Shown: piece by piece, positions 11,189-53,217 of the stretch
Numbering within the stretch: position 1 is the first letter of the stretch
How the letters are laid out: each line of letters opens with the position of its first letter
Virus record (IMG/VR): IMGVR_UViG_3300010885_045154
Location: 1-54,628 of that record
Source: a virus
Direction: 5' to 3' (one strand)
Length of the DNA: 54,628 bases
Position numbers and translations under genes: made by a program
The notes under the pieces: generated by a model
What the model was told of the DNA's origin: nothing
What the model saw: the letters and a program-made list of their open reading frames with translations, nothing else
Database searches by the model: none

Positions 11189-11749
11189 TTATGAATTAGC
11201 TTTGTGCACAAAAATCTGTAAGGTTATTCTAAAGTCAGACTGAACTGGAGATATCCCATGAAGAATACCTCCTCCATTTACTACTGCTTTATTAAAACCA
11301 GGTGAAATAACATTCCACTTTCCAGTCTTTTCATCTTGCCAATTAAAGAATCCTCCTTTGTCATGGTCCCAATCTTTATTTAAGTATATAGTTATTGCTT
11401 TACTATAATTTCCATCTGGATGAGCACATATAAAAGAACCCCTTCCCCATATATTTATAAAAGCAGCAGTTTCCGTAATTCTTTTATCAGTTTTTAAATC
11501 TAAGATTCCATTTTGTATTAATATATCTTCTAGTTCTTTTTCCATTTTTTCTGGTGGCCTAACACATAAAACCAAGCCACTATTGACCACTAAACTTTTG
11601 TGCCATTTTAAGCTGGTCCAAATAGTTCTGGGCGGCTCTTGATAAGTACCCATGGCAACAGAAAGTCCGTAATCATAAAAACTTTGAGCTAGCTCATCTG
11701 GAATTACATCGTTGTATATGGCTATTCCTGGTGATAGTTCTTCTAGCAT
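11189..11749 (-). CDS. Fe(II)/2-oxoglutarate-dependent oxygenase
   Basis: Double-stranded beta-helix dioxygenase, 186 residues. The facial triad is visible as H110-x-D112 (CAHPDGNY) and H164 (GILHGISPV), and R174 (FRITLQIF) would bind 2-oxoglutarate. I chose the ATG at 11749, which overlaps the upstream stop as ATGCTAG; the TTG at 11788 is less likely. It is overlapped with the (SP)n fibre-like gene, so the two are translationally coupled and that protein is a candidate substrate (inference). It is an isolated eighth member of the oxygenase group clustered at 43.6-49.7 kb and is divergent from them. Confidence 0.85.
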   Translation of the reverse strand: MLEELSPGIAIYNDVIPDELAQSFYDYGLSVAMGTYQEPPRTIWTSLKWHKSLVVNSGLVLCVRPPEKMEKELEDILIQNGILDLKTDKRITETAAFINIWGRGSFICAHPDGNYSKAITIYLNKDWDHDKGGFFNWQDEKTGKWNVISPGFNKAVVNGGGILHGISPVQSDFRITLQIFVHKANS

Positions 11750-13059
11750 GGCAAGCTCGGAATTGGTGGATATCCACTTTGAGAGCAAACTATTACGAAA
11801 CTAGAACCACAAAAACTCTGATTCATGGAGGTTATATATTGTGATGTACTTTCATTTCCATCTTCAATTTCTCTAACAGAACAGTACCATGTTGGAGTTG
11901 GTGTGGGATCTGGCGTTGGACTTGGTGAAGGACTTGGTGAAGGACTTGGTGAAGGACTTGGTGTTGATGGCGCAACTACTTCAACTGGGAAAGATTCTCT
12001 AGATGCGGAGCCTGCTGAATTTGTTGCAGTTACCTTACATCTTAAAGTTCCATCTGGATATAAAGAAACATAATTTGATACAGGGCTATATGTTGACAGG
12101 GTTGAAGGATTTCCATTTCTATCATTTCCAAGGGGGGACCAGGTTGATTCATTATCGCTTTGTTCCCACTGATAAGTAAATGATGTTGGAGAGTTTGTCC
12201 ATGTTCCGTTTGTGGTTGAATATTCAGTCACACCAGCTGTTCCAGTAGATGGCGTAACTGTTGGCACAGTTTGATTAACTGGTATTGAAACCAATGCATT
12301 CGTTGTAAGGCTATAATTTGCAGATGCAGTATTTCCAGTAGAAGATGTTACTGTTACTGTTCCAGTGTAAGTCGTTCCTGCGGTTAGTCCCGATTTTGAA
12401 ATAAATGTTGCAGTGGGTGTTGCGGATGTGCTAAATGTTCCAGTTGAAGTATGGCTTGCTTGATTTGTTGAAGTCCAGTTAATTGTTCCTGAAGTTTGAG
12501 TAACGTTAGTATTTGCAGTCATTGATATTGTTGGAATTACTGGGGTAACATTAATAACATTTTGAATAGAAACGGTATCGCTTGTAGATATAGTCTGTAA
12601 TGTTGGAGACACATTAGTATTTGTTGCTGTAACAAGAAATCTAAATGAGCCTGTTGATGTTGATGAAGATGATGGGAAATCTCCAATTACTGGAGTATAT
12701 ATTTTTGTATTTGATGATCCAACGGAAGGATTAGTTATTGTTCCTGTGGGATTTGTTCCGTTACCGTCTAACCATTGTGACCCATTATTATACTGAAATT
12801 TATATGTTAATGTTGTGGCGTTTGTCCATCTATAATTTCTTCCAGTAAGTGTAGCTGGCATAGACGCAGAGCTTCTTACTAATGTTACTTGTTGAGCTAT
12901 TGATGGATCATTTATGCTTGAAATAAATCCAAACATACTTTTCCATACACCACCGCTTCTTATATAAGCTTTAGTTATATTCTTCCATACATCACCTGAT
13001 CGAAGGTAGGCCTTATTAACATTTTTCCAAATGCCACCTGATCTTAATTTAATTGACAT
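11743..13059 (-). CDS. Tail-fibre-like protein with Ig/Fn3 domains and (Ser-Pro)n stalk
   Basis: A 438-residue probable tail-tip or appendage protein. The N-terminus carries three copies of a 14-16-residue motif (LRSGGIWKN, LRSGDVWKN, IRSGGVWKS), typical of virion-attachment segments. Residues about 55-165, 175-255 and 260-365 look like Ig/Fn3-type beta domains. A (SP)n/PTP linker about 20 residues long follows, and the C-terminal domain has five cysteines (WYCSVREIE, FCGSSFVIVCSQ, LPC), possibly disulphide-bonded outside the cell. Encoded with the 2OG oxygenase that overlaps its stop. Adhesion to host is inferred. Confidence 0.75.
   Translation of the reverse strand: MSIKLRSGGIWKNVNKAYLRSGDVWKNITKAYIRSGGVWKSMFGFISSINDPSIAQQVTLVRSSASMPATLTGRNYRWTNATTLTYKFQYNNGSQWLDGNGTNPTGTITNPSVGSSNTKIYTPVIGDFPSSSSTSTGSFRFLVTATNTNVSPTLQTISTSDTVSIQNVINVTPVIPTISMTANTNVTQTSGTINWTSTNQASHTSTGTFSTSATPTATFISKSGLTAGTTYTGTVTVTSSTGNTASANYSLTTNALVSIPVNQTVPTVTPSTGTAGVTEYSTTNGTWTNSPTSFTYQWEQSDNESTWSPLGNDRNGNPSTLSTYSPVSNYVSLYPDGTLRCKVTATNSAGSASRESFPVEVVAPSTPSPSPSPSPSPSPSPTPDPTPTPTWYCSVREIEDGNESTSQYITSMNQSFCGSSFVIVCSQSGYPPIPSLPC
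11918..11965. repeat. Four 12-bp tandem repeats encoding the Ser-Pro linker
   Basis: The unit GGACTTGGTGAA occurs three times exactly, then once as GGACTTGGTGTT. It encodes Ser-Pro pairs on the minus strand. Such short exact repeats are prone to slippage in steps of four residues, changing stalk length without a frameshift. Confidence 0.85.
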
Positions 13060-39716: not shown

Positions 39717-41297
39717 TTATTCTACTTTACTGCCGTCGCCTTTTGGATTTCTGGCTTCTCCAGAAATATCTGGGGAATTATTTTGTCTCTCTTGATCTCT
39801 GGTTCTTGTCTGCCCAGCCTGAGCTCTAATTTCTGCCTGCTGTTGTGGCTTTAATTGAATAACTTCGTCTCCGCCCTCAATTGGAATTTTACCCATTCTT
39901 AGTCGGACTTCGTTTGGAGTAATAACCTGCATTCTCAAATATCTCTCATCAATCTTTGACTGAGTATCTTCATCTGTAAGGCTAAGCTCATTAAATTTAA
40001 TTTGAACCGCATCTGTTTTTTCAGCAATAATTAAATTAATTTTTTTCTCTAATCTCATTTGTGCTGGTCTGCAAACCTGCTCTTTAAATGTTTTATCTGC
40101 ATCTCTGGCTGCTGCTAAATTAATTCCTTCAGGAATACCAATTTTAGAAATTGGTGTTCTATGGGCCAAAAGAATTTCGTCTCTATTTGCCTTTCGGTAA
40201 ACATTAAATGATGATTCCTGTGATCCCGCCTCTATTGGCTCCATCTTAAATTCAACTTTTGAGTCAGGAGTATCTGCTGGAAGCGGGACATAAAGTGATC
40301 TATGATTTTTGCCCTTTAACCCAACCTGAAAAAACTCAAGTAGTTTTCTTTCTGATTCTGGAGAAAGCTTAGCACCTTTAACGGTAATTATATATCTTGG
40401 TACTGCTTTATTCTGGAAGTAGTCAAGGTTATATTGACCAGAAAATTCATTTCCAGCAAGTGCTACCTGGGCAGCTATGATGTCTGGGATTCCATAATAA
40501 TTATCCATTGGCGTATATTTTTTTAAATGAATAATTTCATTGGGTCTTTCTAGGCCACCTGCAATTTGGTTTGGCGTTTCTTGATCTCCAAAGTTTCTGA
40601 AGAAAACTGCCTTTCCATAAAGTAATTGCATGAATCCATCACGAAGTCTTCTGACACGCATTGTCTTTGCTGGGATATGGCCTATATAACCAATATCTCC
40701 ACGGGTTGTTCTGCCTATTTCAATGAAGCCGTTGCCAGTTGCCTCTAAATCTGTATATGCCTTAATGAGAGTCTCTGTAAATGTTTCTTCATCATTTACC
40801 TCTTCTAACCACTGCTCTAAATCTTGTCTTAGTTTTCCAAGCTTTTTTCTAGCTCTTTGTAATTGTTTTTCATCGGTGATTCCGTCTAAAGCATCGTTTG
40901 TTTTTCTTGTTTCATCAAACTGATATCCAAGACCAACGATGTTTGCAACTTTTGCATTAATTGCTGCATAGTTATATGTAGAAACTTCATAGATTTTTGA
41001 AAGATATTCTAGGTTATATATTGGTTGAACTAGGTCAAACATTGCATAGCCAGTGATGGCCTGTGCTAATAAATTCTGCTGTGTTGATGCACTATCTATT
41101 CCAGTAAAAGATTTTGAAAATTCTCTGCTAAGCTTTCTGCGAAATGCTGGACTTAATCCATTTAGTTTTCTAATATCATCTAATTGAATCTGAAATGGAT
41201 CATCGTGCTCTGTTTCTTTTTTAAAAGAAAACCAGTCTGCGACGCTAGATAATTGAATCTCATCGTTTACTTCTGGGGTCTCATCAATATGTTCCAT
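39717..41297 (-). CDS. Portal protein
   Basis: A 526-residue portal, the dodecameric ring through which DNA is packaged. The core is typical of PBSX/HK97-type portals: NLEYLSKIYEVSTYNYAAINAK, a wing with DLEATGNGFIEIGRTTRGDIGYIGHIPAKTM, HLKKYTPMDNYYGIPDIIAAQVAL, the long helix FSGQYNLDYFQNKAVPRYIIT, and a clip/stem with SSFNVYRKANRDEILLAHRTPISKIGIPEG. The C-terminal 60 residues are Gln/Arg-rich and disordered. It lies upstream of the protease gene; terminase is not in the window. Confidence 0.9.
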   Translation of the reverse strand: MEHIDETPEVNDEIQLSSVADWFSFKKETEHDDPFQIQLDDIRKLNGLSPAFRRKLSREFSKSFTGIDSASTQQNLLAQAITGYAMFDLVQPIYNLEYLSKIYEVSTYNYAAINAKVANIVGLGYQFDETRKTNDALDGITDEKQLQRARKKLGKLRQDLEQWLEEVNDEETFTETLIKAYTDLEATGNGFIEIGRTTRGDIGYIGHIPAKTMRVRRLRDGFMQLLYGKAVFFRNFGDQETPNQIAGGLERPNEIIHLKKYTPMDNYYGIPDIIAAQVALAGNEFSGQYNLDYFQNKAVPRYIITVKGAKLSPESERKLLEFFQVGLKGKNHRSLYVPLPADTPDSKVEFKMEPIEAGSQESSFNVYRKANRDEILLAHRTPISKIGIPEGINLAAARDADKTFKEQVCRPAQMRLEKKINLIIAEKTDAVQIKFNELSLTDEDTQSKIDERYLRMQVITPNEVRLRMGKIPIEGGDEVIQLKPQQQAEIRAQAGQTRTRDQERQNNSPDISGEARNPKGDGSKVE

Positions 41298-41703: not shown

Positions 41704-43611
41704 TTAAACGTTTTGAATCACAAGCCAGTCATTATCGAACAGCTCAAATGCATTTTCTGTCAGGGAGAAGGACGCTTCAGATATTACTGTTGGGTCTCCA
41801 TTTATATAAATTTGGTAGTGATCAGAGACAATTCCAGAGTCTATCTCGTAGTCATACATTGATATATACTGATATAGAGATTCAGAGCCTCCATCTGTAG
41901 AATAACCCATCTTAACTGAATTTATTATCTGCTCCTCAAAAACAAGTACTACGTGGTACATTTCTCCAGCCTTAAAAACATTTGATATTGAAGTTTGAGA
42001 TGTTTTATCTACCCCATTTACATATATTTTTTTAATATTATCTTTGGTAATAGCTCCAGAAGAAGCCCATGTGTAAGCAACTCCTATATCTCTATTTACC
42101 TGTCCTGCGTCATAGGAGGTCGTATAAGATGAGTTGTACAGCCCTCCACTAACTATATCTAGACCAGTGTAAGAGGTATTGTATAGGCCTCCAGAGAGCT
42201 CTATAATGGTAGGATCAACCCTGTATATAAGCCCGCCGCCAGACAAGTCTTTGGGGGTATAAAAGAATTCCATTGATGTAGAAAGTTTAGATAAATTTAA
42301 ATAAAATCCAGAATCTTCTTTTGTGCAAATGCCTCCGTACTTATTCCTAGAAAGAATTGCGTATTTTTGGTCTCCAATATATGACTTTGAGTCATATGCT
42401 GAATCATCTGTCATTTGATATATATAGCTAGATGAGTTTGTTGCATAAAGAGTTTGTGACTTATAAAATTTAATAGTTAGGCTTTGCATAAAAGGATTGT
42501 TTAAAAGGTCGTTAGTTGTTGTAAAAACTACCTTTATATAAAGCTGATAAGAGCTACTAAAGCTTTCCCCGCTTGTAGAATTTCCATATTGAGGTATTTT
42601 AGATCCGTTTTCACATTGAACATATGTTACCCCATCAAGGCTGGAGTATACGGCGACACCGCTTGTTGCTACCCACTCTATCTTAGAGCTATCTATTCCG
42701 TATTGTGATGGTATATATAAAAATTCCGTAAAAAATGCTGACTGAGAATTTCCAGTACCTATAGGAATTTGTATTCTATTTTTTACAAAATTATACTCTA
42801 GACCTGAAGTTGTCATGTCTTTCCAGGGCTTTCTTGCTGGATAAGAGTACTCAAATTTAGTTGATATGTTTGTATCGTATATGTCAAACAGCTCTCCCAG
42901 GTCTGGGAATACTGTATTAAAGGCTGGTATGGATTGCGCTAGGCTATAATGATTTTGTATCTGAGACTCTGACAAGGAGTACCTATATATTGCAACGGAG
43001 TCTATTAAAAATTTATTTGATGAGCTAGATGTTGGACCACACTTTAATGCCAAAGAAGCGTTCGTAAACTTAAAGTTGTCTAGTGTTTTTACTGCTTGCT
43101 TTTCTCCGTCTATATATATTGATATATCTGATACAGAATAAACACATACAATATGTACAACGCGGTTAAAATTAGGTATGGCAAAATCAACCCTTGAATT
43201 AGAATCTGACAAACCCTTTAGCGCAAATGCCACTCCGTTATTATTGGCATAAAGACCAACCCCTGATGCTGCATCTGCAACAACTGGCTCCATTGTTGAT
43301 GTAAGGCTTTTTGGATAAATAAAACATTCTATTGTAAAAGGATTATAAGAATAGCTGCTGTTTGCAATTGGGGTCTCTTTGCTTATACCGTAATAATTAT
43401 ATGTTAGTGGAAAAGTAATGCTTTGTAAATTACTTATTTCTACGGAATTAATTCCTCCGTATGTCAGGGGAAGGGGAGGGCTAGAAAAAGACTGTAAGTA
43501 AACTCCATTATTTCCGCAACCAGATATATCTATGGCGGTAGTTCCAGACTGTTCATCTAAAAACCAAAAGCCTAGTGGATTATCTTTTATTACTGAGTAC
43601 TTATAGGACAT
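41704..43611 (-). CDS. LamG/concanavalin-fold structural protein
   Basis: A 635-residue beta-rich protein. Residues about 1-220 are a Laminin G-like (concanavalin) domain: YKYSVIKDNPLGFWFLDEQSG, SGCGNNGVYLQ, NPFTIECFIYPKS, VHIVCVYSVSDISIYIDGEK and KFLIDSVAIYRYSLSESQIQNHY. A middle beta-sandwich and a second LamG-like part (GEMYHVVLVFEEQ...QIYINGDP) follow. The ATG at 43611 lies 6 bases after a TATAAT box and no ribosome binding site is seen; a GTG at 43659 in frame is less likely. Such proteins are virion decoration or glycan-binding proteins; its place between oxygenases and portal is unusual. Confidence 0.72.
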   Translation of the reverse strand: MSYKYSVIKDNPLGFWFLDEQSGTTAIDISGCGNNGVYLQSFSSPPLPLTYGGINSVEISNLQSITFPLTYNYYGISKETPIANSSYSYNPFTIECFIYPKSLTSTMEPVVADAASGVGLYANNNGVAFALKGLSDSNSRVDFAIPNFNRVVHIVCVYSVSDISIYIDGEKQAVKTLDNFKFTNASLALKCGPTSSSSNKFLIDSVAIYRYSLSESQIQNHYSLAQSIPAFNTVFPDLGELFDIYDTNISTKFEYSYPARKPWKDMTTSGLEYNFVKNRIQIPIGTGNSQSAFFTEFLYIPSQYGIDSSKIEWVATSGVAVYSSLDGVTYVQCENGSKIPQYGNSTSGESFSSSYQLYIKVVFTTTNDLLNNPFMQSLTIKFYKSQTLYATNSSSYIYQMTDDSAYDSKSYIGDQKYAILSRNKYGGICTKEDSGFYLNLSKLSTSMEFFYTPKDLSGGGLIYRVDPTIIELSGGLYNTSYTGLDIVSGGLYNSSYTTSYDAGQVNRDIGVAYTWASSGAITKDNIKKIYVNGVDKTSQTSISNVFKAGEMYHVVLVFEEQIINSVKMGYSTDGGSESLYQYISMYDYEIDSGIVSDHYQIYINGDPTVISEASFSLTENAFELFDNDWLVIQNV

Positions 43612-43617
43612 AATAAG

Positions 43618-43623
43618 ATTATA
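43618..43623 (-). promoter_or_regulatory. -10 box with leaderless geometry
   Basis: TATAAT on the minus strand, then CTTATT and the ATG at 43611. The 6-base distance equals that at 16120 and 925. It begins inside the end of the preceding oxygenase gene. The -35 region is weak (TTGTTT, 18-base spacer). Confidence 0.4.
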
Positions 43624-43625
43624 CC

Positions 43626-44174
43626 TTAAAAAGGCTCCTTGAAACAAAATATTGGACACATATACTTTGTACCTTTTGTTACTGGTTTTGGATCATGATA
43701 ATATGGTGGATACGAAGGAAATATTATCATGCTTCCAGCCTTTGGCTTGATGTCAAGGCCTTGCTCTGGGAAGGATATGTTCCCGCCCTCGTAATCCTCA
43801 TTTAAATATAAAACTATAGATATTGTCGGAGATTTATCCGCAGTTTTATCTATTGAGTCTACGTGTGGCCCCATATAGGCGCCAGTTGAATATTTTTGTA
43901 TTTTATAAAAATCTGGAAGCCATCCAAATTTAATTCCTGTATTTTCAGTATAGTTTTCTAAACAAGTATGCGTAACATATTTTATTGGATCTAATATTAC
44001 ATTAGGAAGTTGATGTGGGCCTCCAGCATATGTGCCATATTCTATAGCCCCGTCGCTGGATAACCAATCATGCCAATCTAAAGAATACTCATCTATTAAT
44101 GATTTATATGCAGAGACATCGCTAAAGATGTCTGTATAGTAATATATGTTTTCCTCTAGCTTTTGGACATTCAT
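43626..44174 (-). CDS. Fe(II)/2-oxoglutarate-dependent oxygenase
   Basis: A 182-residue prolyl-4-hydroxylase-like dioxygenase. Iron ligands: H104-x-D106 (GPHVDSID) and H160 (YYHDPKPV); the 2OG-binding residue is K170 (TKGTKYMC) where animal P4Hs use Lys and many bacterial ones Arg. YLNEDYEGGNISF and KPKAGSMIIFPS are conserved beta strands. GGAG precedes the ATG, one base after the preceding stop. Part of a run of seven oxygenase genes. Substrate unknown; phage members are usually guessed to modify proteins, and the structural genes around suggest virion proteins. Confidence 0.88.
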   Translation of the reverse strand: MNVQKLEENIYYYTDIFSDVSAYKSLIDEYSLDWHDWLSSDGAIEYGTYAGGPHQLPNVILDPIKYVTHTCLENYTENTGIKFGWLPDFYKIQKYSTGAYMGPHVDSIDKTADKSPTISIVLYLNEDYEGGNISFPEQGLDIKPKAGSMIIFPSYPPYYHDPKPVTKGTKYMCPIFCFKEPF

Positions 44175-44885
44175 TTATTCTCCGTTTTTGCCAACGTAGT
44201 CTAAAGTAATTCCTTTTTCTTTATTATCTGCCCATACCTTATATTCTTCTTCTTGCTGGCTTCTAACTTCAGCCAATTCATCAGCCCATTTTTTTCTTTG
44301 CTCTTCAGTATAAACAGAATCAGCATTGTCCCAAAATGATCCTATGGTGTATCTTGTTCCGCTTTTAACTTTTGTAACTTCGTGCTCATTGCCATGGCCT
44401 CCCGCAAATACTGCGAGCATGCCAGTCTCTGGCTTTATGCTAATATCATAATTTTTAAAGTTTAGCACTCCTCCAGTAAAATCATCATTTAAATACATAA
44501 ATGCTGCATACTTGCTTCTTTCAAATGCTGTCGGATTGCCTTCTTCGTCTGAATTGTCTGAGTGAAATGAGGCAAATGCTCCTTCTATCCACTTCTGTGC
44601 ATGATAGCTAACCTCAGAAAGCTCTTTACCTAAAACTTTTTCGCATGCATTCTTTATTCTAGAATTAAGTCTGGCAAAGTAATCTGAGGGCAAATCAAAC
44701 ATGGCTAGCTTTGGATCTGACTCCCAAAATCCCATTGCATATGAGTCATAAAATGATATTTGATTCCACTTTAGAAGATTTGATTCTGCTAAAAATTCTA
44801 AATATCTAATTATTTTATTAGCTTCTTCTGGAGTTACAACATTTGATACATGAAAAACATCTTCTTTGTGTTTAGTTATTTCCAT
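44175..44885 (-). CDS. Fe(II)/2-oxoglutarate-dependent oxygenase
   Basis: A 236-residue member with a complete active site: H108-x-D110 (SFHSDNS), H168 (GNEHEVTKV) and R178 (SGTRYTIGSFW). It uses Arg for 2OG, unlike its Lys-type neighbours. YLNDDFTGGVLNF and KPETGMLAVFAGG are the usual core strands. The C-terminal 45 residues are an added charged helical tail (YTEEQRKKWADELAEVRSQQEEE...) that could bind a partner. GGGAGAT precedes the ATG; it overlaps the preceding oxygenase by 14 bases. Confidence 0.88.
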   Translation of the reverse strand: MEITKHKEDVFHVSNVVTPEEANKIIRYLEFLAESNLLKWNQISFYDSYAMGFWESDPKLAMFDLPSDYFARLNSRIKNACEKVLGKELSEVSYHAQKWIEGAFASFHSDNSDEEGNPTAFERSKYAAFMYLNDDFTGGVLNFKNYDISIKPETGMLAVFAGGHGNEHEVTKVKSGTRYTIGSFWDNADSVYTEEQRKKWADELAEVRSQQEEEYKVWADNKEKGITLDYVGKNGE

Positions 44886-45654
44886 AATTATCTCCCATAT
44901 TAATATACTTCATGCTTTTAGGGTTTTCTTCTTCTAGCCGCTCCTGCTCCATTTTAGCCCAACGAGATGCTCCGTAATGTCTTTGATTTCTAAGCCATTC
45001 TTCTGATCCATTATAAGTATAAGACACAAAGTTTCTAACAAAAAATTTTTCTCCTGAAGTTATAGTTTTAACTCCATGAAAATATGGCTCTATAGAAGGA
45101 AACACTAGAATGTCCCCCGCATCTGGTTTGTAAGGATATTGTTTCCCATCCATTAAAAATTCAATTTCTCCACCAAGATAATCATCGTTTAAATATGTTG
45201 TACATGTTAAAAAGAATTTTGGTCCTGGCATATCTCTTTCAGTTATTATGTAGTCTGTATGATATTGCATAGACATATTATTTTTCATAAGATCTACATT
45301 TGTATCATATTTTGAAAATGACGATGTGAGAAGAGAAGCACCTTCTGGAAGGGTTAAGTTATGTCTTTTTATGTAATCAGATATGGCTTTTGTATATGCT
45401 TCATATACAGAGTCAGATAAATACTTTTCGTCATCATACATTTCGCCGTATTCTCTAGGCTCGTTATCATTATGTTTTTGCTGAGTGTAAGAACCAAATA
45501 CAGACCACTGGTCCCACTCTCTTAAATAGTATCTACCATTTGAATTTTTAGCAGACTCTTTAACAATCTCTGCCAATCTTTTTGAGTCTGGTAATAAATT
45601 TTTATAGACATCTACCTTTGGATATATCTCAAAAAAATCTAATTCGTTATTCAT
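44872..45654 (-). CDS. Fe(II)/2-oxoglutarate-dependent oxygenase
   Basis: A 260-residue member, the longest of the group. Active site: H132-x-D134 (QYHTDYI), H193 (YFHGVKTI) and K203 (SGEKFFVRNF). The first 125 residues are a helical lid with many aromatic and acidic residues (REWDQWSVFGSYTQQK), likely the substrate-binding part. The C-terminus adds a WLRNQRHYGASRWAKMEQERLEE helix. It overlaps the upstream gene by 8 bases. Target unknown. Confidence 0.86.
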   Translation of the reverse strand: MNNELDFFEIYPKVDVYKNLLPDSKRLAEIVKESAKNSNGRYYLREWDQWSVFGSYTQQKHNDNEPREYGEMYDDEKYLSDSVYEAYTKAISDYIKRHNLTLPEGASLLTSSFSKYDTNVDLMKNNMSMQYHTDYIITERDMPGPKFFLTCTTYLNDDYLGGEIEFLMDGKQYPYKPDAGDILVFPSIEPYFHGVKTITSGEKFFVRNFVSYTYNGSEEWLRNQRHYGASRWAKMEQERLEEENPKSMKYINMGDNYGNN

Positions 45655-46336
45655 TATTTTCTTTCCCTAGCTTTGTTACGGTCCAAAAAAGTGGGTAGGT
45701 GTACCTGCATCCTTCTTTAACAGCATTTACTCCATGAATATAATTCATGTCCCCAGGGAAAAAATATGCTCCTCTAGCTTTAGTCTTAAATACAATATTT
45801 TGTTTTGGAAAATAAAGTTCTCCGCCTATATAGTCGTCATTTAAATAAAAAACTGTTCCAATGTCATACCATGGGAATTCATTTGGGGTGCCAGCATCTG
45901 GTCCTTCGTGAAGCTCTTTGTCGGCGTGTGGGAATTGCATAGTTCCTACTGGCCATCTAACTATTGCTGGTGCTGCTGGAGATACCTCTACATTAAATTT
46001 ATCTTCAATTATTGGCTTCATTCTTTCTGTAACAAGTGTCAGAATTTCTACTACTTTTTTATCCGCCTTTGTTAGGGTGCCTACTGTTGCTACACGATTT
46101 TCCCAAACTCTGTGGTCATATATAATGTTTCCATTTTCATTCCATTGTGATTCTGTAATATCCCACATGGTATTATTCTTTGCAAAATTTAGTAAATATT
46201 CCTGCTCTTCTTCTGTGATAAAATTTTCTATCTCTACAATATTATCTGCAGATTCACCAAAATATCCAGATGGAGTTATTGACTTTCTAGAATATCTCAC
46301 TCTTTCTTGAACTTCTTTATTTTCATTAGATATCAT
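45647..46336 (-). CDS. Fe(II)/2-oxoglutarate-dependent oxygenase
   Basis: A 229-residue member starting MISNENKEVQERVRYSRK at 46336. This ATG overlaps the previous stop as ATGA and has AAGAAGG 7 bases upstream, so I prefer it to the in-frame ATG at 46357. Active site: H137-x-D139 (FPHADKEL), H201 (NYIHGVNAV) and R211 (EGCRYTYPLFW). A 20-residue loop follows the HAD motif (LHEGPDAGTPNEFPW), longer than in its neighbours, suggesting a different substrate. Confidence 0.87.
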   Translation of the reverse strand: MISNENKEVQERVRYSRKSITPSGYFGESADNIVEIENFITEEEQEYLLNFAKNNTMWDITESQWNENGNIIYDHRVWENRVATVGTLTKADKKVVEILTLVTERMKPIIEDKFNVEVSPAAPAIVRWPVGTMQFPHADKELHEGPDAGTPNEFPWYDIGTVFYLNDDYIGGELYFPKQNIVFKTKARGAYFFPGDMNYIHGVNAVKEGCRYTYPLFWTVTKLGKENNE

Positions 46337-47064
46337 TCGTGTACCTTCTTTTTCCATAAGTGTTTTTTATACTGTCCGTTTTCATTTGTTCTTAAAATAT
46401 TGCTAGCAGTATCTTTAATTTCTTTCATTTTTTCTTCTTCGGGATACTCTAATTCCATTTTCCAGTTCTCTCTTTTAAATGGAATTACTTGAACATATGG
46501 AGTTCCCGCTGGCAATACTCCAGAAAATCCTTCTCTTAAAAAGAAAGGCACTAGACCTGGGATCTCTAACATATCACTATCTATTATACCAGCAGTAGAA
46601 ATAAATGGTAGATCATATCGGTTTATTGGAGAAATAAAAATTGCACTGTAACCCTTTTCTAATCTAACGCCCCAGTTAGGGTACCAATGAAAATGATTTT
46701 CTTCATATCCATAAGGAACGGCAAATCCATTCATCGGCTCTCTTGATCCAATAAACCTTTCATACCCTGGTTCTGTTTTAGCTACCAATGTATTACTTTG
46801 TGGATCTTTATAAAACATAATATCACATGGAGTAGTTAGATAATAACCATTTAAAAACATGTCTAGCAGAGCTGGACAAGACTTAAAACCAAGTATGTCG
46901 GCACCCCATTGGTGTTTTAAAACTTCCTCTTTTCCATCTTCTTTCCAATATTTGTTCGCAGAAACAAACCACTTAGGAACTTGCGTTTTCCCTGGCTTGG
47001 GGGCAAGAACTTTATTTTCATTATTGTATAATTGATGTGAAACAAATGTTATTTTTTTATTCAT
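46333..47064 (-). CDS. Uncharacterised phage protein (DUF6065-like?)
   Basis: A 243-residue protein from the ATG at 47064. It starts KKITFVSHQLYNNENKVLAPKPGKTQVPKWF and contains ISPINRYDLPFISTAGIIDSD, FFLREGFSG and AGTPYVQVIPFKRENW. I know this pattern (a strand-rich core with a HWYPNWGVRL and a P-x-x-R-Y-D-L-P block) from uncharacterised phage proteins, probably DUF6065, but cannot verify it. It ends with ATGA into an oxygenase gene. The cupin-like strand pattern may mean a metal or sugar site; no motif proves it. Related to the next gene upstream. Confidence 0.65.
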   Translation of the reverse strand: MNKKITFVSHQLYNNENKVLAPKPGKTQVPKWFVSANKYWKEDGKEEVLKHQWGADILGFKSCPALLDMFLNGYYLTTPCDIMFYKDPQSNTLVAKTEPGYERFIGSREPMNGFAVPYGYEENHFHWYPNWGVRLEKGYSAIFISPINRYDLPFISTAGIIDSDMLEIPGLVPFFLREGFSGVLPAGTPYVQVIPFKRENWKMELEYPEEEKMKEIKDTASNILRTNENGQYKKHLWKKKVHE

Positions 47065-47065
47065 T

Positions 47066-47761
47066 TTATTTTTCAATTACCTTTAATTTAATTGATTTTA
47101 CTTCATGATTTCCTAATTTATTTCCATTTATGTCTTTAGCATCTCTATAGCTATTTGACCAAAAACCTTTTTGCAATTTTTGTTTTGGCTGTTCTACTTT
47201 ATTTTCATTATTATTAATAGTGTTTAATATTTCTATACCCGAATAAAAAATAGAAGAATCTTGAATTTCTGATAGAGATACTGGAAAAATAGAAGATATT
47301 GGAGTGTTTGCTTTAATTGTTATTATTTTATTAGGCTTTAATATTCTTAAGGCACATGGCAGATCTGCTTGAAAAAATGATGTGCTTATAAGTGTTGTAA
47401 AAGACTGATATTCATCAGTAAATAAATTTGGCACTGGCATTTGTAATAAACTTGTATTTTGATTTGTTCTAAAAACTAAACCCGTTTTAAAGCTTATGGT
47501 GGCATTAGCCCTTTCAGTATAGCAATATTTATGTCCAGACAATATAGTCACATGATGCCCAGAAGTATCTGATATTCCATCCCAGATAAAAGATATGTCT
47601 TCTGGATAAGATATTCCCCACCCTAAAGAATTTGCAAGTGTCACTGGAAAACATACGTAAGCATGAGAATCTACCGTGTCGTCCATCCAGCCTCTTTTTA
47701 CAGAAAGCTGTGATATATTTGCAGCATCTTCTGTTTTTTTATAAACTAAAATGTCATACAT
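47066..47761 (-). CDS. Uncharacterised phage protein, relative of the 46333-47064 gene
   Basis: A 231-residue beta-rich protein. It contains AYVCFPVTLANSLGWGISYPEDI and WDG, then NATISFKTGLVFRTNQNTSLLQMPVPN, and ends with ANTPISSIFPVSL. The hydrophobic/Gly/Trp pattern and the closing P-I-x-x-I-F-P-V-S-L strand parallel PYVQVIPFKRENW in the neighbouring 243-residue protein, so I read both as one superfamily (resembling DUF6065 from memory). It starts within the end of the upstream oxygenase (8-base overlap), hence it belongs to the oxygenase operon. Function unknown. Confidence 0.65.
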   Translation of the reverse strand: MYDILVYKKTEDAANISQLSVKRGWMDDTVDSHAYVCFPVTLANSLGWGISYPEDISFIWDGISDTSGHHVTILSGHKYCYTERANATISFKTGLVFRTNQNTSLLQMPVPNLFTDEYQSFTTLISTSFFQADLPCALRILKPNKIITIKANTPISSIFPVSLSEIQDSSIFYSGIEILNTINNNENKVEQPKQKLQKGFWSNSYRDAKDINGNKLGNHEVKSIKLKVIEK

Positions 47762-48419
47762 AATTTTCTGTATATCTTTTTTCTATCTCTCTGTATTCTG
47801 GGGTGTGAGGTGCCTCTAAGTAATCAAGCATGGTAACTATAGAGTACTTTGTGCCAGAAGTTACTGGCATTGCTGCATGCGAGTAAATATATGAAGATGG
47901 GAATAAATATAAATCACCAGCCTTTGGTTTAATCTTTAAATTAAACTTATCAAAAAATAGCTCGCCTCCTTCATAGTCATCATTTATGTATCCAACAGAA
48001 GATAGGACGCAAATGTATGAGTATCCGTGGTCTGAATGAACCTGAAAATGTTGGCTTGGACCATATTTAATAAAATTAAAAGATTCCCAATATTTTAATG
48101 GCGCTAAGCCAAACATTTGGCTGTAGTCTTCAACTGGGGCTAGCTGTGCATTATAAGAATCTTCCCAAATTTTTTCAAGCTTTAGCGTAGACTCGCTTTT
48201 TCCAGAATCGTCCCATGTATTTTTTTTAATTTTGAAATCTGAACAGTCTCTATATTCTTTATCTACTAAAGCATATCCAGTTTTTGCAGTCTTCCATTTA
48301 TTTACATCAGATCTATCCGATAAAGTTTCTTCTAGTCTATTAATTAAATCAAGATCTTTGGTGAAAACATTTCTGTATACAACAATACCTGGTCCTAAAA
48401 ATTCGGCGTTTTTTAACAT
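47754..48419 (-). CDS. Fe(II)/2-oxoglutarate-dependent oxygenase, paralogue A
   Basis: A 221-residue member. Active site: H128-x-D130 (QVHSDHGYS), H181 (YSHAAMPV) and K191 (SGTKYSIVT). The motif PGIVVYRN...DLDLINRLEE is the usual N-terminal helix/strand. It is highly similar along its length to the next gene upstream (48435-49127): both share YRDCSDFKIKKNT, SESTLKLEKI and YINDDYEGGELFFDK, so they are tandem duplicates. GGAG precedes the ATG. Confidence 0.88.
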   Translation of the reverse strand: MLKNAEFLGPGIVVYRNVFTKDLDLINRLEETLSDRSDVNKWKTAKTGYALVDKEYRDCSDFKIKKNTWDDSGKSESTLKLEKIWEDSYNAQLAPVEDYSQMFGLAPLKYWESFNFIKYGPSQHFQVHSDHGYSYICVLSSVGYINDDYEGGELFFDKFNLKIKPKAGDLYLFPSSYIYSHAAMPVTSGTKYSIVTMLDYLEAPHTPEYREIEKRYTENYV

Positions 48420-48434
48420 TTATTCTCCAATTTA

Positions 48435-49127
48435 TTAATCATGTACAGACTTTATTTGTCTTTTAGCTATTTCTTTTTTTTCTATCTCTTTATATTCTGG
48501 GGTATGCGGCGCTTCTAAATAATCCATGAAGGTAACAATAGCATACTTTGTTCCAGAGGTAATAGGCAGGGATGCATGTGAATAAAGATATGTAGACGGA
48601 TATAAATATAAATCACCAGCTTTTGGTTTAATCTTTAAATTAAGTTTGTCAAAAAATAACTCGCCTCCTTCGTAGTCGTCATTTATGTATCCAACACAAG
48701 ACAAAACACAAATGTGATTATAACCATGGTCAGAGTGAACTTCAACATATTCTCCTTGATCATATTTTACAAAATTGAGTGATTCCCAATATTCTAATGG
48801 CGATAACCTAAAATGTTGAGAATAATCTTTAACTGCGTTCAAGGCTGCTCTACAACAGTCTTCCGAAATTTTTTCCAGTTTTAATGTAGATTCGCTTTTG
48901 CCCAAATTATCCCCAGTATTTTTTTTAATTTTAAAATCAGAGCAATCTCTATATTTTTTACCAACTTGAACATTTCCATCTCTTGAAGTTTTTGCAGTTC
49001 TCCACTGATTTTCATTTGACTCATTAGATAAAATTTGTTCTAGTCTGTTAATTAAATCAAGGTCCTTGGGAAATGCATTTCTGTATACAATAAGGCCTGG
49101 GGCTATATATTCAGCATTACTTAACAT
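48435..49127 (-). CDS. Fe(II)/2-oxoglutarate-dependent oxygenase, paralogue B
   Basis: A 230-residue duplicate of the 47754-48419 gene. Active site: H131-x-D133 (EVHSDHGYN), H184 (LYSHASLP) and K194 (SGTKYAIVTF). The catalytic core is almost unchanged between the copies while the region around residues 40-55 (TSRDGNVQVGKKYR against TGYALVDKEYR) differs, suggesting altered substrate choice. Both keep all catalytic residues, so neither looks decayed. GGAG precedes the ATG. Confidence 0.88.
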   Translation of the reverse strand: MLSNAEYIAPGLIVYRNAFPKDLDLINRLEQILSNESNENQWRTAKTSRDGNVQVGKKYRDCSDFKIKKNTGDNLGKSESTLKLEKISEDCCRAALNAVKDYSQHFRLSPLEYWESLNFVKYDQGEYVEVHSDHGYNHICVLSCVGYINDDYEGGELFFDKLNLKIKPKAGDLYLYPSTYLYSHASLPITSGTKYAIVTFMDYLEAPHTPEYKEIEKKEIAKRQIKSVHD

Positions 49128-49139
49128 TTGCTCTCCACT

Positions 49140-49748
49140 TTATTTATATTGGTCACTTCTGTGTCCTTTTGCTGTACGATCTGTCATCAAAGCAAATATA
49201 TATTTTGTACCATTTATAATTGGATACGCTGCGTGTGCATATGAGTAAGCAGATGGAAATATTGCTAAGTCTCCAATTTCTGGCTTATAATTAATATCAA
49301 AGAATTTAAAGTGTAGGTTTCCGCCATCATAATCATCATTAAGATAAGCAACGCAAGATACGGTATACCTCACATCTGGGCCATCATCTGTATGATAATT
49401 AAAAAAATCATTTACAGAATATTTAACAACGTTTAATGCTTCAAAATATTTTACCTTAACTGGGTAATCTTTTTCGTAGTCTAACAAACACTCTTTAATT
49501 TTTATCATTACTTCATTATATAACTCTATTAATTGTTTTGAATTTTTGCTATTTTTTTCTAGAGATGTATCACTATATAAAAAATTTTTACAAAATCTGC
49601 TGCTTCCATGGTATAGATCGCTGTCATTGGTTGCAGCGTCATACCAAGAATCTCCTATATTTTCTTCATATCTTTTTACTAAATTCATAGATTCTGGGAA
49701 AATGTTTTTGTATATTACTATTCCTGGACCAATTACATTTTTTATCAT
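49140..49748 (-). CDS. Fe(II)/2-oxoglutarate-dependent oxygenase
   Basis: A 202-residue member, the first oxygenase in transcription order. Active site: H119-x-D121 (NYHTDDGPD), H172 (YAHAAYPI) and K182 (NGTKYIFALM). It shares the PGIVIYKNIFPESMNLV opening with the tandem pair downstream but is more diverged. The stop/start spacing to its neighbours is 1-12 bases, indicating a single transcript with the small cysteine protein and the rest of the cluster. Confidence 0.87.
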   Translation of the reverse strand: MIKNVIGPGIVIYKNIFPESMNLVKRYEENIGDSWYDAATNDSDLYHGSSRFCKNFLYSDTSLEKNSKNSKQLIELYNEVMIKIKECLLDYEKDYPVKVKYFEALNVVKYSVNDFFNYHTDDGPDVRYTVSCVAYLNDDYDGGNLHFKFFDINYKPEIGDLAIFPSAYSYAHAAYPIINGTKYIFALMTDRTAKGHRSDQYK

Positions 49749-49749
49749 A

Positions 49750-49992
49750 TTACTCTCGATCTTCTCTATGCCATTTACCTATTGGGCACTCGGCATTCGA
49801 AAGAGTTGTTTTTCCTGGCATATAACATAAACACTTACTGCATTGTTTTGTTGGTAAAAAAAACTCACAAGCCATACACAAATCTAGCCTTGATTTAATT
49901 ATTGAAGCATCTTTAACTATTCTATCTGGATCTAATAGATGCCAGGGCCTAGAGTCACCTAGATTTTTTTTCCATTCTTCCCATTTAGACAT
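49750..49992 (-). CDS. Cysteine-cluster protein (DUF6171-like?)
   Basis: An 80-residue protein with six cysteines in a compact pattern: CMAC, then CSKCLC, then C in ECPIGKW. I recognise the block (RLDLCMACEFF, QCSKCLCYM, PGKTTLSNAECPIGKW) from small proteins that accompany 2OG oxygenases in environmental phages, probably DUF6171; this is memory, not a search. It likely binds one or two zinc ions or an iron-sulphur cluster. The first 35 residues (WEEWKKNLGDSRPWHLLDPDR) may be a partner-binding arm. It begins the oxygenase run. Confidence 0.7.
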   Translation of the reverse strand: MSKWEEWKKNLGDSRPWHLLDPDRIVKDASIIKSRLDLCMACEFFLPTKQCSKCLCYMPGKTTLSNAECPIGKWHREDRE

Positions 49993-50004
49993 TATATACT
50001 CTTT

Positions 50005-50427
50005 CTAATATTTCAATATTATTTTTTGGTTAGAGTCCCAGATGTCTCCAAAACCTACTGAGTCTTCATTAGAAACATCTAAAACAATTACATCGTTTTC
50101 AAATGCCGCGTTATATTTTATAAATTTATCAGTATTTTTATTAATTATTGATATGCCAAAAACTTTATTTTCTGACAACAGTGTGTATACTACTTCGTTT
50201 TGGGAAAAGGTTTGTATACCCTCTTTATTTTCAACAATAAATTTATTGTCAGCTAATACTGCACCTATTTTTATATTATTATAATTTGGAGCTAAAATAG
50301 CAATTGCCCCTACAGAAATAGCTTGACTATATCTTTTGATCATTTCTAAATTTTCAAAAAAGAATATATCAAATATTTCATAGATATTTTTATCTATTTT
50401 TACCGCTAAGGCAAATTTGTTTTGCAT
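50005..50427 (-). CDS. Hypothetical protein, possible virion accessory
   Basis: A 140-residue beta-rich protein. It contains FALAVKIDKNIYEIFDIFFFENLEMIKRY, IKIGAVLADNKFIVE and VGFGDIWDSNQKIIL; the last resembles endings of small phage tail-associated proteins (VGFGD...). No catalytic motif. The strong promoter at 50451-50479 lies just upstream, so it probably leads the transcript that runs through the oxygenases. Function unknown. Confidence 0.6.
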   Translation of the reverse strand: MQNKFALAVKIDKNIYEIFDIFFFENLEMIKRYSQAISVGAIAILAPNYNNIKIGAVLADNKFIVENKEGIQTFSQNEVVYTLLSENKVFGISIINKNTDKFIKYNAAFENDVIVLDVSNEDSVGFGDIWDSNQKIILKY

Positions 50428-50450
50428 TTTTTTCTTTCTGTTAGATCTAT

Positions 50451-50479
50451 ATTATATAATATAAATTTACAATTGACAA
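50451..50479 (-). promoter_or_regulatory. Strong promoter for the oxygenase block
   Basis: Minus strand TTGTCA (50479-50474), 17-base spacer, TATAAT (50456-50451): five and six of six consensus matches at ideal spacing. It overlaps the stop of the FFxPPx fibre gene. The -10 box sits in a 16-base perfect palindrome (TATATTATATAATATA, 50448-50463), which may just be AT-richness or may bind a repressor. Confidence 0.65.
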
Positions 50480-51294
50480 CTACCACCTGAGCAATAGTAT
50501 CCGTATGGGCAGAATGAACAGAACGATGGTGGGGAGAAGAATCCTGGTGGGGAGAAGAATCCTGGTGGGGAGAAGAATCCTGGTGGGGAGAAGAATCCTG
50601 GTGGCGAGAAGAACGATGGTGGGGCAAAGAACGCTGGTGGCGAGAAGAACGCTGGTGGGGCAAAAAATGTTGTTACTGGGCCTACTCTTTTAGCTAAAGA
50701 TGTTCCATTAGCATTAATTGCATATATATCGTAGCTTTGTGAAGTTCCACCAGTTTCTGTAACTTGTTTTGAAGTTACAAGTATTCCAGTATAAGAGGGG
50801 CCGTCTGTAGAAGTTACGGTATAGCTTGATATAGCTTTTCCTCCAGTTGCTGGAGCTGTCCATGTAAGATCATCTCTATCTGCGACTGTTGATGTTACTG
50901 AAGCTGTCTGAATAGCTTGAGGAACTGTAGTCGCCGTTACTGAGCTTGAAGTGGTACCTGCTGAAGATCCGACAGCGCTATTTGCAGTGATTGTAAATGT
51001 ATATGCTGTTCCAGAAGCTAGTCCTTGAAAAGTATATGGGCTTGAAGATGCTGTATGCGTATATGTAGATGGAGATGTTATAATTGTATATGAAGAAGCT
51101 GCTGCGGATCCAGCTGGAACCGCAAATGTTAGTGTGACTGCTCCTCCAGTTCCAGCAGCTGATGCTGCGGAAGTAGTATTTGCTGTTGCTAGATATGGTC
51201 TTGAAGTTCCAATATCTGTTGCGCCTGATATTACTACCGCTTCTGGCTGACTTATTTGACCTGAAACTTTACCTGTTCTTTTACCTGCTGCCAT
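50467..51294 (-). CDS. Fibre-like protein with Fn3 domains and FFxPPx hexapeptide repeats
   Basis: A 275-residue protein. It starts with a short basic segment (MAAGKRTGKVSGQIS), then two Fn3-like beta domains (about residues 30-125 and 130-205) with typical ASGTAYTFTITANSAVGSS and YTVTSTDG strands. A tail of eight hexapeptides follows, FFAPPA/FFSPPG types, and then a compact cysteine-rich end (CSFCPYGYYCSGGSCQL). The repeated aromatic-proline pattern with PPG triplets is unusual and recalls collagen-like sites for prolyl hydroxylation. It sits directly before the oxygenase operon. AGGAG precedes the ATG. A tail fibre or appendage by context. Confidence 0.72.
   Translation of the reverse strand: MAAGKRTGKVSGQISQPEAVVISGATDIGTSRPYLATANTTSAASAAGTGGAVTLTFAVPAGSAAASSYTIITSPSTYTHTASSSPYTFQGLASGTAYTFTITANSAVGSSAGTTSSSVTATTVPQAIQTASVTSTVADRDDLTWTAPATGGKAISSYTVTSTDGPSYTGILVTSKQVTETGGTSQSYDIYAINANGTSLAKRVGPVTTFFAPPAFFSPPAFFAPPSFFSPPGFFSPPGFFSPPGFFSPPGFFSPPSFCSFCPYGYYCSGGSCQL
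50528..50671. repeat. Eight 18-bp tandem repeats encoding FFxPPx
   Basis: The 18-base unit GGTGGGGAGAAGAATCCT is present four times without change (50528-50599), then four diverged units follow to 50671. Each codes for one hexapeptide. Identical copies at one end and diverged copies at the other is the usual picture of ongoing expansion and contraction. Confidence 0.92.
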
Positions 51295-51312: not shown

Positions 51313-53217
51313 TTATGCTGTTGCTAAATCGCCGATTAATACCCAAGTGTTTGCGGAACGCTTAAAGAGTGTTGCAGATGACCATTGAGCTCTTAAGAAA
51401 GCACCTGGTGTTGAGTTAACTGTAGCTCCTGCTGCTGCTACTATTCTAACTCCTCCAGTATTTGTTCTTAAAATATCTATAGATGTGCCTATCGGAAAAT
51501 TAAGTGTTGCATCTGTTGGGACTGTAATGTCTACAGCAGATCCACCAGTATGAGAAACTTCAATTAAGTCGTCCCTTTCTGTTAATGATGATAGAGTATA
51601 TCCTGCTGTTTTTTGAATAATTGTGGTTCTTGATGGAACTCCTTCAAGTGTCTGTGTTCCATCTGTAAAAATAAATCCTCCAGCTGTTGAACTAATTACC
51701 GAAGTTCCATTTACTTTTAAATCTTTTCCAGAAGCAAGGTTGATATGCTCTGAAGATGTCCAAGAATCTGTGGAGTCTACCCAGTTAAAAGTTTTATCTG
51801 TTGCGCCCTTAAGTGTGATACCTCCACCATCTGCAGTTACATCTGTTGGTGTAGCTGTATCTCCAAGAACGATGTTCTTATCTTCAATAACAAGGTTGGT
51901 TGAGTTAAGATTTGTTGTTGTTCCATTAACTGTTAAATTACCAGAAACTGTTATATCTGCTGCTGCAAGTGTGCCAGTAAATGTAGGTCCAGCAATTGGA
52001 GCCTTGAGGTCAAGGGCTGTCTGTGTAGCAGTTGATATTGGCTTTGATGCATCTGCTGTGTTATCAACATTTGCAAGACCTACCATTGTTTTTGTAATTC
52101 CTGTTGCTGTTGTTGTTACAGCAAGTGTAGGAATTGTCACTGTGCCAGTAAATGTAGGTCCAGCAATTGGAGCCTTGAGGTCAAGGGCTGTATTTACAGT
52201 TGCGGTTAGTGCAAGTGCTGAAGTATCTGCAATACCATGAACTGATGTTGTATCATTTTCATGATTAGTTACAGCTGTAGCAATTGCTGAAGCTGCTGCA
52301 ATTCCCGCTGCAGTAATTGCATTTGATTGTGCATTTGATGCAGCTGTATTAACCGCAGTTGTAGTTGCAAGTACTGAAGTATCTGCAATTCCATGAACGT
52401 TTGTTGTATCAGACTCATGAGTAGAAATATCTGAAGTAAGTGCTACTGTACCAGAAGCATTTGGGAGTGTAATTGTACGATCTGCTGTTGGGTCTGTTAC
52501 TGTAAGTAGTGTCTCATAAGCGTCTGCTGTAGTACCTTCAAATGAAATAGAAGAGTCTAAAGAAACAAGACCCGTAAATGTAGGGTTAGCAATTGGAGCC
52601 TTAGTATCAATCTGTGTCTGGATTCCTGATGTCACGCCATCAAGGTACCCTATTTCTGTGTCTGAAACACCAGTAATTTTATTTTGCTTGTCATTACTTA
52701 AAGAACTTAATGAGTTAGCAATTGTTACAGAATAGTTAGCGTCGTTTCCAAGTGCTGCTGCAAGTTCATTTAATGTATCTAATGTTCCTGGTGCGCTATT
52801 TACTAATGCTGATATATCTGAGGTTAAAGCAACTGTACCAGTAGCATTTGGGAATGTAATAGTTCTATCAGCAGTTGGGTCTGTAACTGCTAAAGTTGTT
52901 TCAAAAGCATTATCTGTTGCTCCTTCAATTACAATAGAAGATCCTGGAACAATAAGATTTTTGCTTGCGTCTAGTCCAGCAACACCTGAGATTGCTCCAA
53001 TGTCTGTTATCTCAACATATCCTGTTAAGGTGCTTGTTAGGTTAGCAATACCTGGGTCGTTTGCATAAGCTAGTGATGTCCAAGCGGTTGTTCCGTCACC
53101 AAACTTAAGATATTTTGTATCTGACTCAAAGCCCATTTCTCCAGCTTCTAAAACTGGATTTGCTGAGGTCCACTGTGATGCGGTTCCTCTTCTTACTTGA
53201 ATTCTTACTGTTGACAT
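51313..53217 (-). CDS. Modular tail fibre protein
   Basis: A 634-residue fibre. The N-terminus (VRIQVRRGTASQWTSANPVLEAGEMGF followed by KYLKFGDGTTAWTSL) is the common virion-anchoring domain of phage fibre and tropism proteins. The rest is a chain of repeated modules: DPTADRTITFPNATGTVALTSDIS appears twice, KAPIAGPTFTGT twice, plus helical stretches (TTAVNTAASNAQSNAITAAG). The last part (INFPIGTSIDILRTNTGGVRI) is a typical fibre-end domain with a trimeric beta fold. The module around IEDKNIVLGDTATPTD...GGGITLKGATDKTFNWVDS recurs in the partial gene at the window end. AGGAG precedes the ATG. Confidence 0.82.
   Translation of the reverse strand: MSTVRIQVRRGTASQWTSANPVLEAGEMGFESDTKYLKFGDGTTAWTSLAYANDPGIANLTSTLTGYVEITDIGAISGVAGLDASKNLIVPGSSIVIEGATDNAFETTLAVTDPTADRTITFPNATGTVALTSDISALVNSAPGTLDTLNELAAALGNDANYSVTIANSLSSLSNDKQNKITGVSDTEIGYLDGVTSGIQTQIDTKAPIANPTFTGLVSLDSSISFEGTTADAYETLLTVTDPTADRTITLPNASGTVALTSDISTHESDTTNVHGIADTSVLATTTAVNTAASNAQSNAITAAGIAAASAIATAVTNHENDTTSVHGIADTSALALTATVNTALDLKAPIAGPTFTGTVTIPTLAVTTTATGITKTMVGLANVDNTADASKPISTATQTALDLKAPIAGPTFTGTLAAADITVSGNLTVNGTTTNLNSTNLVIEDKNIVLGDTATPTDVTADGGGITLKGATDKTFNWVDSTDSWTSSEHINLASGKDLKVNGTSVISSTAGGFIFTDGTQTLEGVPSRTTIIQKTAGYTLSSLTERDDLIEVSHTGGSAVDITVPTDATLNFPIGTSIDILRTNTGGVRIVAAAGATVNSTPGAFLRAQWSSATLFKRSANTWVLIGDLATA
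51970..52020. repeat. 51-bp direct repeat, copy 1 (fibre gene)
   Basis: Identical over 51 bases to 52141-52191 and encodes the APIAGPTFTGT fibre module. A more diverged copy occurs near 52571. Spacing of 171 bases keeps the reading frame. Confidence 0.9.
52141..52191. repeat. 51-bp direct repeat, copy 2 (fibre gene)
   Basis: Exact second copy of 51970-52020. Recombination between them would delete 57 codons in frame. Confidence 0.9.

Follow-up and report, generated by a model that had tools for sequence, protein, structure and literature searches.

Fe(II)/2-oxoglutarate oxygenase genes adjoining an FFxPP-repeat fibre gene in a tailed phage: a probable fibre-hydroxylation cassette

Introduction

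Oxygenases that depend on Fe(II) and 2-oxoglutarate (2OG) are common yet unexplained in aquatic phages. The DNA analysed here, a 54.6 kb IMG/VR virus record (IMGVR_UViG_3300010885_045154; the window, meaning the whole stretch of 54,628 nucleotides), has a gene set of the tailed phage type and a portal gene with a short DNA match to large Streptomyces phages. Its subject of interest is a block of 2OG oxygenase genes next to a gene for a fibre-like protein with repeated Phe-Phe-x-Pro-Pro (FFxPP) units, a linkage that offers a concrete candidate substrate for such enzymes. Cyanophage oxygenases have been proposed to serve host nitrogen metabolism or DNA repair (PMC3037559), a 2026 survey reports that many phage oxygenase proteins resemble human EGLN3 and names no substrate (PMC12774648), and in a Baltic survey the viral use of prolyl 4-hydroxylase "remains cryptic" (PMC9301287). 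No published account was found of the repeat strings, of the cassette protein DUF6065 or of this phage cassette, which is a weak negative because the literature coverage was incomplete; some freshwater phage publications do not mention oxygenases.

The oxygenase block and the neighbouring fibre

A preliminary description of the window had placed seven intact Fe(II)/2OG oxygenase genes in one block, beside a fibre-like protein with eight FFxPPx units, several of them FFSPPG. Both statements are borne out: seven unbroken minus-strand open reading frames lie within 43626-49748, and the fibre-like protein has exactly eight FFxPP units, of which four read FFSPPG. The genes, all on the minus strand, are the following.

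50467-51294, minus strand: FFxPPx-repeat fibre-like protein (275 amino acids) with one fn3 domain, 8 FFxPP units and a Cys-rich C-terminus; the proposed substrate; relatives at L081-L086
50005-50427, minus strand: 140-amino-acid protein between fibre and block, kept in the nearest relatives
49750-49992, minus strand: small Cys-containing protein (80 amino acids) between fibre and block; weak match to DUF6171; phrog_13558
49140-49748, minus strand: OG1, 2OG oxygenase (202 amino acids) with a predicted prolyl-hydroxylase-like fold; PF13640; HxD..H..K; profile nearest to prolyl 4-hydroxylases (P4Hs); AlphaFold2 (AF2) model
48435-49127, minus strand: OG2, 2OG oxygenase (230 amino acids), 71% identical to OG3, a recent duplicate; PF13640; iron/2OG motif
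47754-48419, minus strand: OG3, 2OG oxygenase (221 amino acids), core orthologue; PF13640; motif; also adjoins FFxPP genes in a differently arranged cassette
47066-47761, minus strand: X1, DUF6065 protein (231 amino acids) with a predicted dUTPase-like fold, a non-oxygenase and core cassette member; PF19541 at 3e-26; AF2 pLDDT (predicted local distance difference test) 89
46333-47076, minus strand: X2 (247 amino acids), phrog_7084 by PHROG match, a non-oxygenase and recurrent cassette member
45647-46357, minus strand: OG4, 2OG oxygenase (236 amino acids), core orthologue, the most divergent from PF13640; PHROG matches; motif
44872-45654, minus strand: OG5, 2OG oxygenase (260 amino acids); PF13640; motif
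44175-44885, minus strand: OG6, 2OG oxygenase (236 amino acids); PF13640; motif
43626-44174, minus strand: OG7, 2OG oxygenase (182 amino acids); PF13640; motif

Read along the minus strand, the order is a fibre with a major-tropism-determinant N-terminal domain (Mtd_N), the fn3/FFxPP protein, two small open reading frames, three oxygenases, DUF6065, phrog_7084, four oxygenases, a LamG-like protein and, further on, the portal. In the oxygenase run neighbouring genes overlap or sit a few bases apart, and the clustering of the oxygenases is far above chance expectation. The Pfam cut-off for PF13640 is passed by six of the seven; OG4 lies under it (E 7.6e-4) and matches PHROG oxygenase families at 3e-13 to 1e-12. 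The HxD...H...K/R iron/2OG motif is present in all seven by pattern or alignment. Apart from the OG2/OG3 pair (OG2 being absent in L083/L084/L086), the block oxygenases are far more diverged among themselves. In related blocks the catalytic HxD/E..H..R/K motif is retained by 257 of 260 oxygenases and the order OG3, DUF6065, X2, OG4, OG5/OG6, OG7 is conserved, which suggests from sequence that the paralogues do different jobs.

Likeness of the oxygenases to protein hydroxylases

The best PDB profile matches of the OG1 family are prolyl or lysyl hydroxylases from bacteria, viruses and animals (prolyl 4-hydroxylases, P3H1 and LH3) and PKHD oxygenases, with 1.2e-9 to P4H. The AF2 model of OG1 (pLDDT 88) matches most closely the fold of an algal P4H with (Ser-Pro)5 (Z 19.2), followed by PHD2 (19.1), the Pseudomonas putida P4H (18.2) and vCPH of PBCV-1 (17.4); the likeness reaches also a PKHD-type oxygenase (Z 17.9). 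By sequence and modelled fold, OG1 is thus closest to P4Hs. With the known enzymes (algal 3GZE/2JIG, those of B. anthracis and P. putida, PHD2, and PBCV-1 vCPH 5C5T) it shares a fold at Z 17-19, the HxD..H..K/R motif and the nearest profiles; unlike them, it has an identity of only 14-20%, belongs to a phage block where five to seven paralogues form a single operon-like run, and has here no more than a candidate substrate. The P4H of Paramecium bursaria chlorella virus is likewise virus-encoded and, as cited in PMC9301287, is thought to act on viral proline-rich proteins, so that a virus-encoded prolyl hydroxylase for structural proteins is already known from PBCV-1. That system belongs to a eukaryotic algal virus, however, and the text consulted does not describe a multi-enzyme cassette beside one fibre gene.

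The cyanophage 2OG-Fe(II) oxygenases (phrog_61, phrog_2297) are of the same superfamily and also occur several per genome; they supply the best protein matches listed for OG2 (27-29% identity). In contrast to the genes studied here, in the three cyanophage regions examined they lie mostly among replication and metabolism genes, some following short tail fibres, and the tail fibres there have no FFxPP; in S-H9-1 the short tail fibres adjoining two OG2-matched oxygenases were without FFxPP. These relatives bear on the idea that the block enzymes have an auxiliary role in metabolism or repair, by lowering 2-oxoglutarate or mending DNA, as has been proposed for T4-like cyanophages (PMC3037559), and PHROG labels such as "DNA endonuclease V" and "ferrochelatase" on relatives point the same way. 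However, a draw-down of 2OG needs neither five to seven conserved distinct orthologues nor a link to one repeat type, and the sequence matches are to protein hydroxylases, which makes such a role for the block highly unlikely.

Linkage of FFxPP genes to oxygenases across viruses

A degenerate DNA pattern for FFxPPxFFxPP matched at least 120 stretches in IMG/VR, and the linkage figures apply among the matches listed. At least one oxygenase was present in 94 of the 120 FFxPP stretches listed. In a strict count, limited to FFxPP genes that are followed by 2 kb or more of 3' sequence, an oxygenase lay at most 5 kb 3' of 72 of 84 genes, and two or more did so in 68 of 84. The same procedure gave an oxygenase link for 3 of 84 collagen-type Gly-X-Pro (GXP) genes and for 0 of 52 (XP)7 genes (Fisher p about 1e-30 for FFxPP versus GXP and about 1e-26 for FFxPP versus (XP)7), and oxygenases per 100 kb numbered 30 in the FFxPP set, 0.65 in the GXP set and 0.45 in the (XP)7 set. 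Proline-rich repeats in general are rejected as the oxygenase partner on the basis of the (XP)7 control.

The GXP and (XP)7 sets were drawn from other genomes and habitats, and a within-genome test was therefore added. In 18 records, 81 of 108 listed oxygenases lay at most 8 kb from an FFxPP gene, against an expectation of 29.7 and a lower count in every one of 2000 rotations, the oxygenases being the best rows listed, which biases the count. The coupling of oxygenases to proline-rich fibres that had been proposed from the window thus extends to many viruses. A differently arranged cassette (L117, L119, L152, L193) combines a short FFxPP protein with an OG4-type gene that lies on the other strand, and again orthologues of OG3, OG4 and mostly DUF6065 flank the FFxPP genes. 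Among 84,980 prokaryote genomes, a three-unit pattern yielded 11 stretches only, mostly with one match each and no oxygenase nearby. One bacterial contig, from Novosphingobium sp. Fuku2-ISO-50 (L466), has six FFAPPx units in an open frame of 405 amino acids, and the 8 kb available contain no oxygenase.

The repeat unit

Of 1089 units, 94% have A, S or G at the third position; the sixth varies, with G in 46% (PPG, 497/1089), S in 15%, and then A, L, R, F, V and N. The frequency of PPG could point to a collagen-type P4H system that acts on PPG and stabilises a collagen-like triple helix, the more so as collagen P4Hs prefer X-Pro-Gly. The preliminary description had likewise pointed to PPG as a hydroxylation element, a proposal that the comparison does not support. 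Among relatives identified by the part of the fibre outside the repeat, many units are FFGPPT or FFGPPN, and an array of 11 units has PPG in only 2, with FFxPP kept; PPG is therefore not required. Nor does the repeat have the Gly-X-Y form with X-Pro-Gly of a collagen-like substrate: it reads FFxPPx and does not have Gly as each third residue. Genuine GXP repeats show almost no linkage to oxygenases, as counted above, and several oxygenase-free relatives bear GXY-type fibres. The loss of PPG, the missing Gly periodicity and the GXP count speak against collagen-type PPG recognition, and a collagen-type system is the most improbable of the readings considered. The [A/S/G]-Pro element resembles plant and algal P4H sites; as a guess, this likeness would agree with modification of the first of the two prolines.

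In many related fibres the FFxPP array is followed directly by an intein-like Hint domain (L010, L039, L041, L087, L090, L103, L104, L126, L137, L154, L170, L182). The domain starts with F-C and ends with H/Y-N, and its best PDB profile matches are inteins and a bacterial intein-like domain, so that a self-processing fibre terminus is possible. The fibre of the window has a Cys-rich end in place of this domain.

Flanking genes and phages related by their portal

Three further minus-strand genes frame the comparison with related phages.

51313-53217, minus strand: fibre-like protein with Mtd_N, directly upstream of the FFxPP gene; PF18454 at 1.7e-17
41704-43659, minus strand: LamG/ConA-lectin-like protein directly 3' of the block; PF13385 at 6.9e-16; cluster C2, a recurrent cassette end
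39717-41297, minus strand: portal protein; PF04860 at 4.7e-33; basis of the tree of relatives

Relatives were picked by their portal without regard to the fibre. All nine records with FFxPP have at least five PF13640 matches (range 5-10); those without FFxPP have 0-2, save three records. Two of these three exceptions (G021 and G036) were read out and have fibres with HFPP/FFPP/YFPP arrays. In G043 and G047, with a single PF13640 match each, other proline-rich fibre-like proteins lie close to that gene. The portal tree implies about 6 changes in the state of the block (5-7 in bootstraps), and a repeat fibre (FFxPP or [FHY]FPP) tracks the block in 41 of 41 rows. In some phage records (G008, G014, G027, G049) up to 15 PF13640 genes are found, several distant from any FFxPP gene; such extra oxygenases outside the block may have metabolic or repair roles.

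The oxygenases could instead target another virion or host molecule, such as the lectin-like protein, the Mtd_N fibre, or a glycan or teichoic acid of the host surface, and accompany the FFxPP fibre only as parts of one exchangeable host-recognition cassette. The LamG-like protein and the Mtd_N fibre do flank the block, LamG is a recurrent cassette end, and portal relatives swap cassettes as a unit. However, in several cassettes the LamG-like gene is missing or replaced by another, the repeat fibre follows the block in every row of the portal comparison, and the enzymes resemble protein prolyl and lysyl hydroxylases; another target is thus judged unlikely. The LamG-like protein could itself be a further receptor-binding or substrate protein.

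DUF6065 and possible decorating enzymes

The commonest non-oxygenase member of the cassettes is DUF6065 (cluster C0), with 61 members at 57 loci among 74 blocks. A sequence search of DUF6065 against the PDB gave no significant match, and its structure was therefore predicted. The AF2 model matches many dUTPases at Z about 11 over 115-137 residues, and DUF6065 is accordingly assigned a dUTPase-like fold on the strength of the model. An alignment of 47 members shows a conserved signature, KRDWMD..HAYxCFP, that seems by eye to differ from the catalytic dUTPase motifs.

Between the fibre and the first oxygenase, related cassettes may code for further enzymes. A sulfotransferase and an Asp/Arg beta-hydroxylase form a pair there in 8 blocks; the one sulfotransferase tested belongs to PF03567 and the one Asp/Arg hydroxylase tested to PF05118. 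Loci noted with this pair are L100, L104, L137, L150, L154, L156, L165, L170 and L171. A PF11397 GlcNAc (N-acetylglucosamine)-transferase is found between fibre and oxygenases at L101:8652-9602 and L211:11783-12790, and a weakly matched GNAT-like gene in 5 blocks. These transferases could act on hydroxyl groups, and the occurrence of a sulfotransferase, an Asp-hydroxylase and a GlcNAc-transferase in some cassettes is as expected for the decoration of hydroxyls. The pairing of a P4H-type enzyme with a PF11397-type GlcNAc-transferase in L101 and L211 recalls the Skp1 hydroxyproline/GlcNAc pathway of protists, whose GlcNAc-transferase presumably belongs in PF11397; unlike the block itself, this pairing lies outside the window.

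A proposed fibre-hydroxylation cassette

Because the set sits next to a Phe-Pro repeat gene in many phages, the cassette oxygenases probably finish the adjoining fibre. The window would thus hold, with good probability, a dedicated fibre-hydroxylation cassette of a tailed phage at its host-recognition locus. From 51294 to 43626, one strand encodes a fibre-like protein ending in FFxPPx repeats together with P4H-like oxygenases, DUF6065 and phrog_7084, and the enzymes would hydroxylate the repeat array during virion assembly. That the FFxPP repeats are the oxygenase substrate is the firmest part of this proposal and is very likely; that proline is a modified residue is reasonably likely. The likeliest sites would be the prolines in [A/S/G]-Pro-Pro, and perhaps other residues too, given the conservation of several different oxygenases. 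Hydroxylation would yield a chemically altered tip, stiffer or more polar, beside the tropism-determinant-type fibre and the lectin-like protein; an effect on host binding or stiffness is possible, with the balance slightly against it. In related phages, enzymes whose genes lie between those of the fibre and the oxygenases (sulfotransferase, GlcNAc-transferase or acetyltransferase-like) might then decorate the new hydroxyls. More doubtful is a phage-wide tailoring system with a logic like that of peptide-modifying gene clusters, in which aromatic-proline fibre tips would be hydroxylated on residues of more than one type and, in certain lineages, capped by sulfate, GlcNAc or acetyl, with DUF6065 as a substrate carrier or scaffold, to give variable post-translational host-recognition surfaces.

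Several points weigh against fibre hydroxylation. Physical linkage would also be expected if fibre and enzymes were swapped together as one host-recognition cassette. The F and P positions were set by the search pattern, which fixes FFxPP, and their conservation in the FFxPP set is therefore by construction. On the portal tree only 2 contrasts fall on strongly supported branches, and with so few firm independent contrasts the independent-pairs sign test is not significant. Many cyanophage oxygenases occur without FFxPP fibres in the regions examined, and the structure model and fold search covered OG1 alone among the oxygenases. No named phage isolate with the cassette was found by DNA match or, among 50,697 phage records, by DUF6065 protein.

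The linkage also gives a minimal testable protein set (OG3, OG4 and DUF6065) and matched phages without the cassette. If the proposal is true, phages build part of their host-recognition apparatus post-translationally, and sequence-based host prediction would miss that part.

A second site in the window

An eighth oxygenase had been described as overlapping the gene of an (SP)n fibre-like protein at 11.7 kb, and the two genes do share 46 bases.

11743-13059, minus strand: (SP)n fibre-like protein (438 amino acids), with an Ig-like part homologous to FFxPP fibres of other phages
11189-11788, minus strand: OG8, 2OG oxygenase (199 amino acids); PF13640 just over the cut-off; 46-base overlap with the next gene

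In OG8 the HxD and distal H of the motif align, and the alignment of the K/R is less clear. A search for OG8 relatives by DNA pattern gave a 16-residue match only. A record syntenic with the window (L192, whose metallophosphoesterase-like protein is 80% identical) carries an OG8 homologue (L192:5387-5968, E 1.6e-27) about 2 kb away from an FFxPP fibre, which is itself adjoined by an oxygenase of its own. The two couplings of the window had been taken as independent of each other. The second is real, but it is not fully independent of the first because of the homology of the Ig-like part and the OG8 homologue beside the L192 FFxPP fibre. Even so, it supports a system of the kind proposed for the block.

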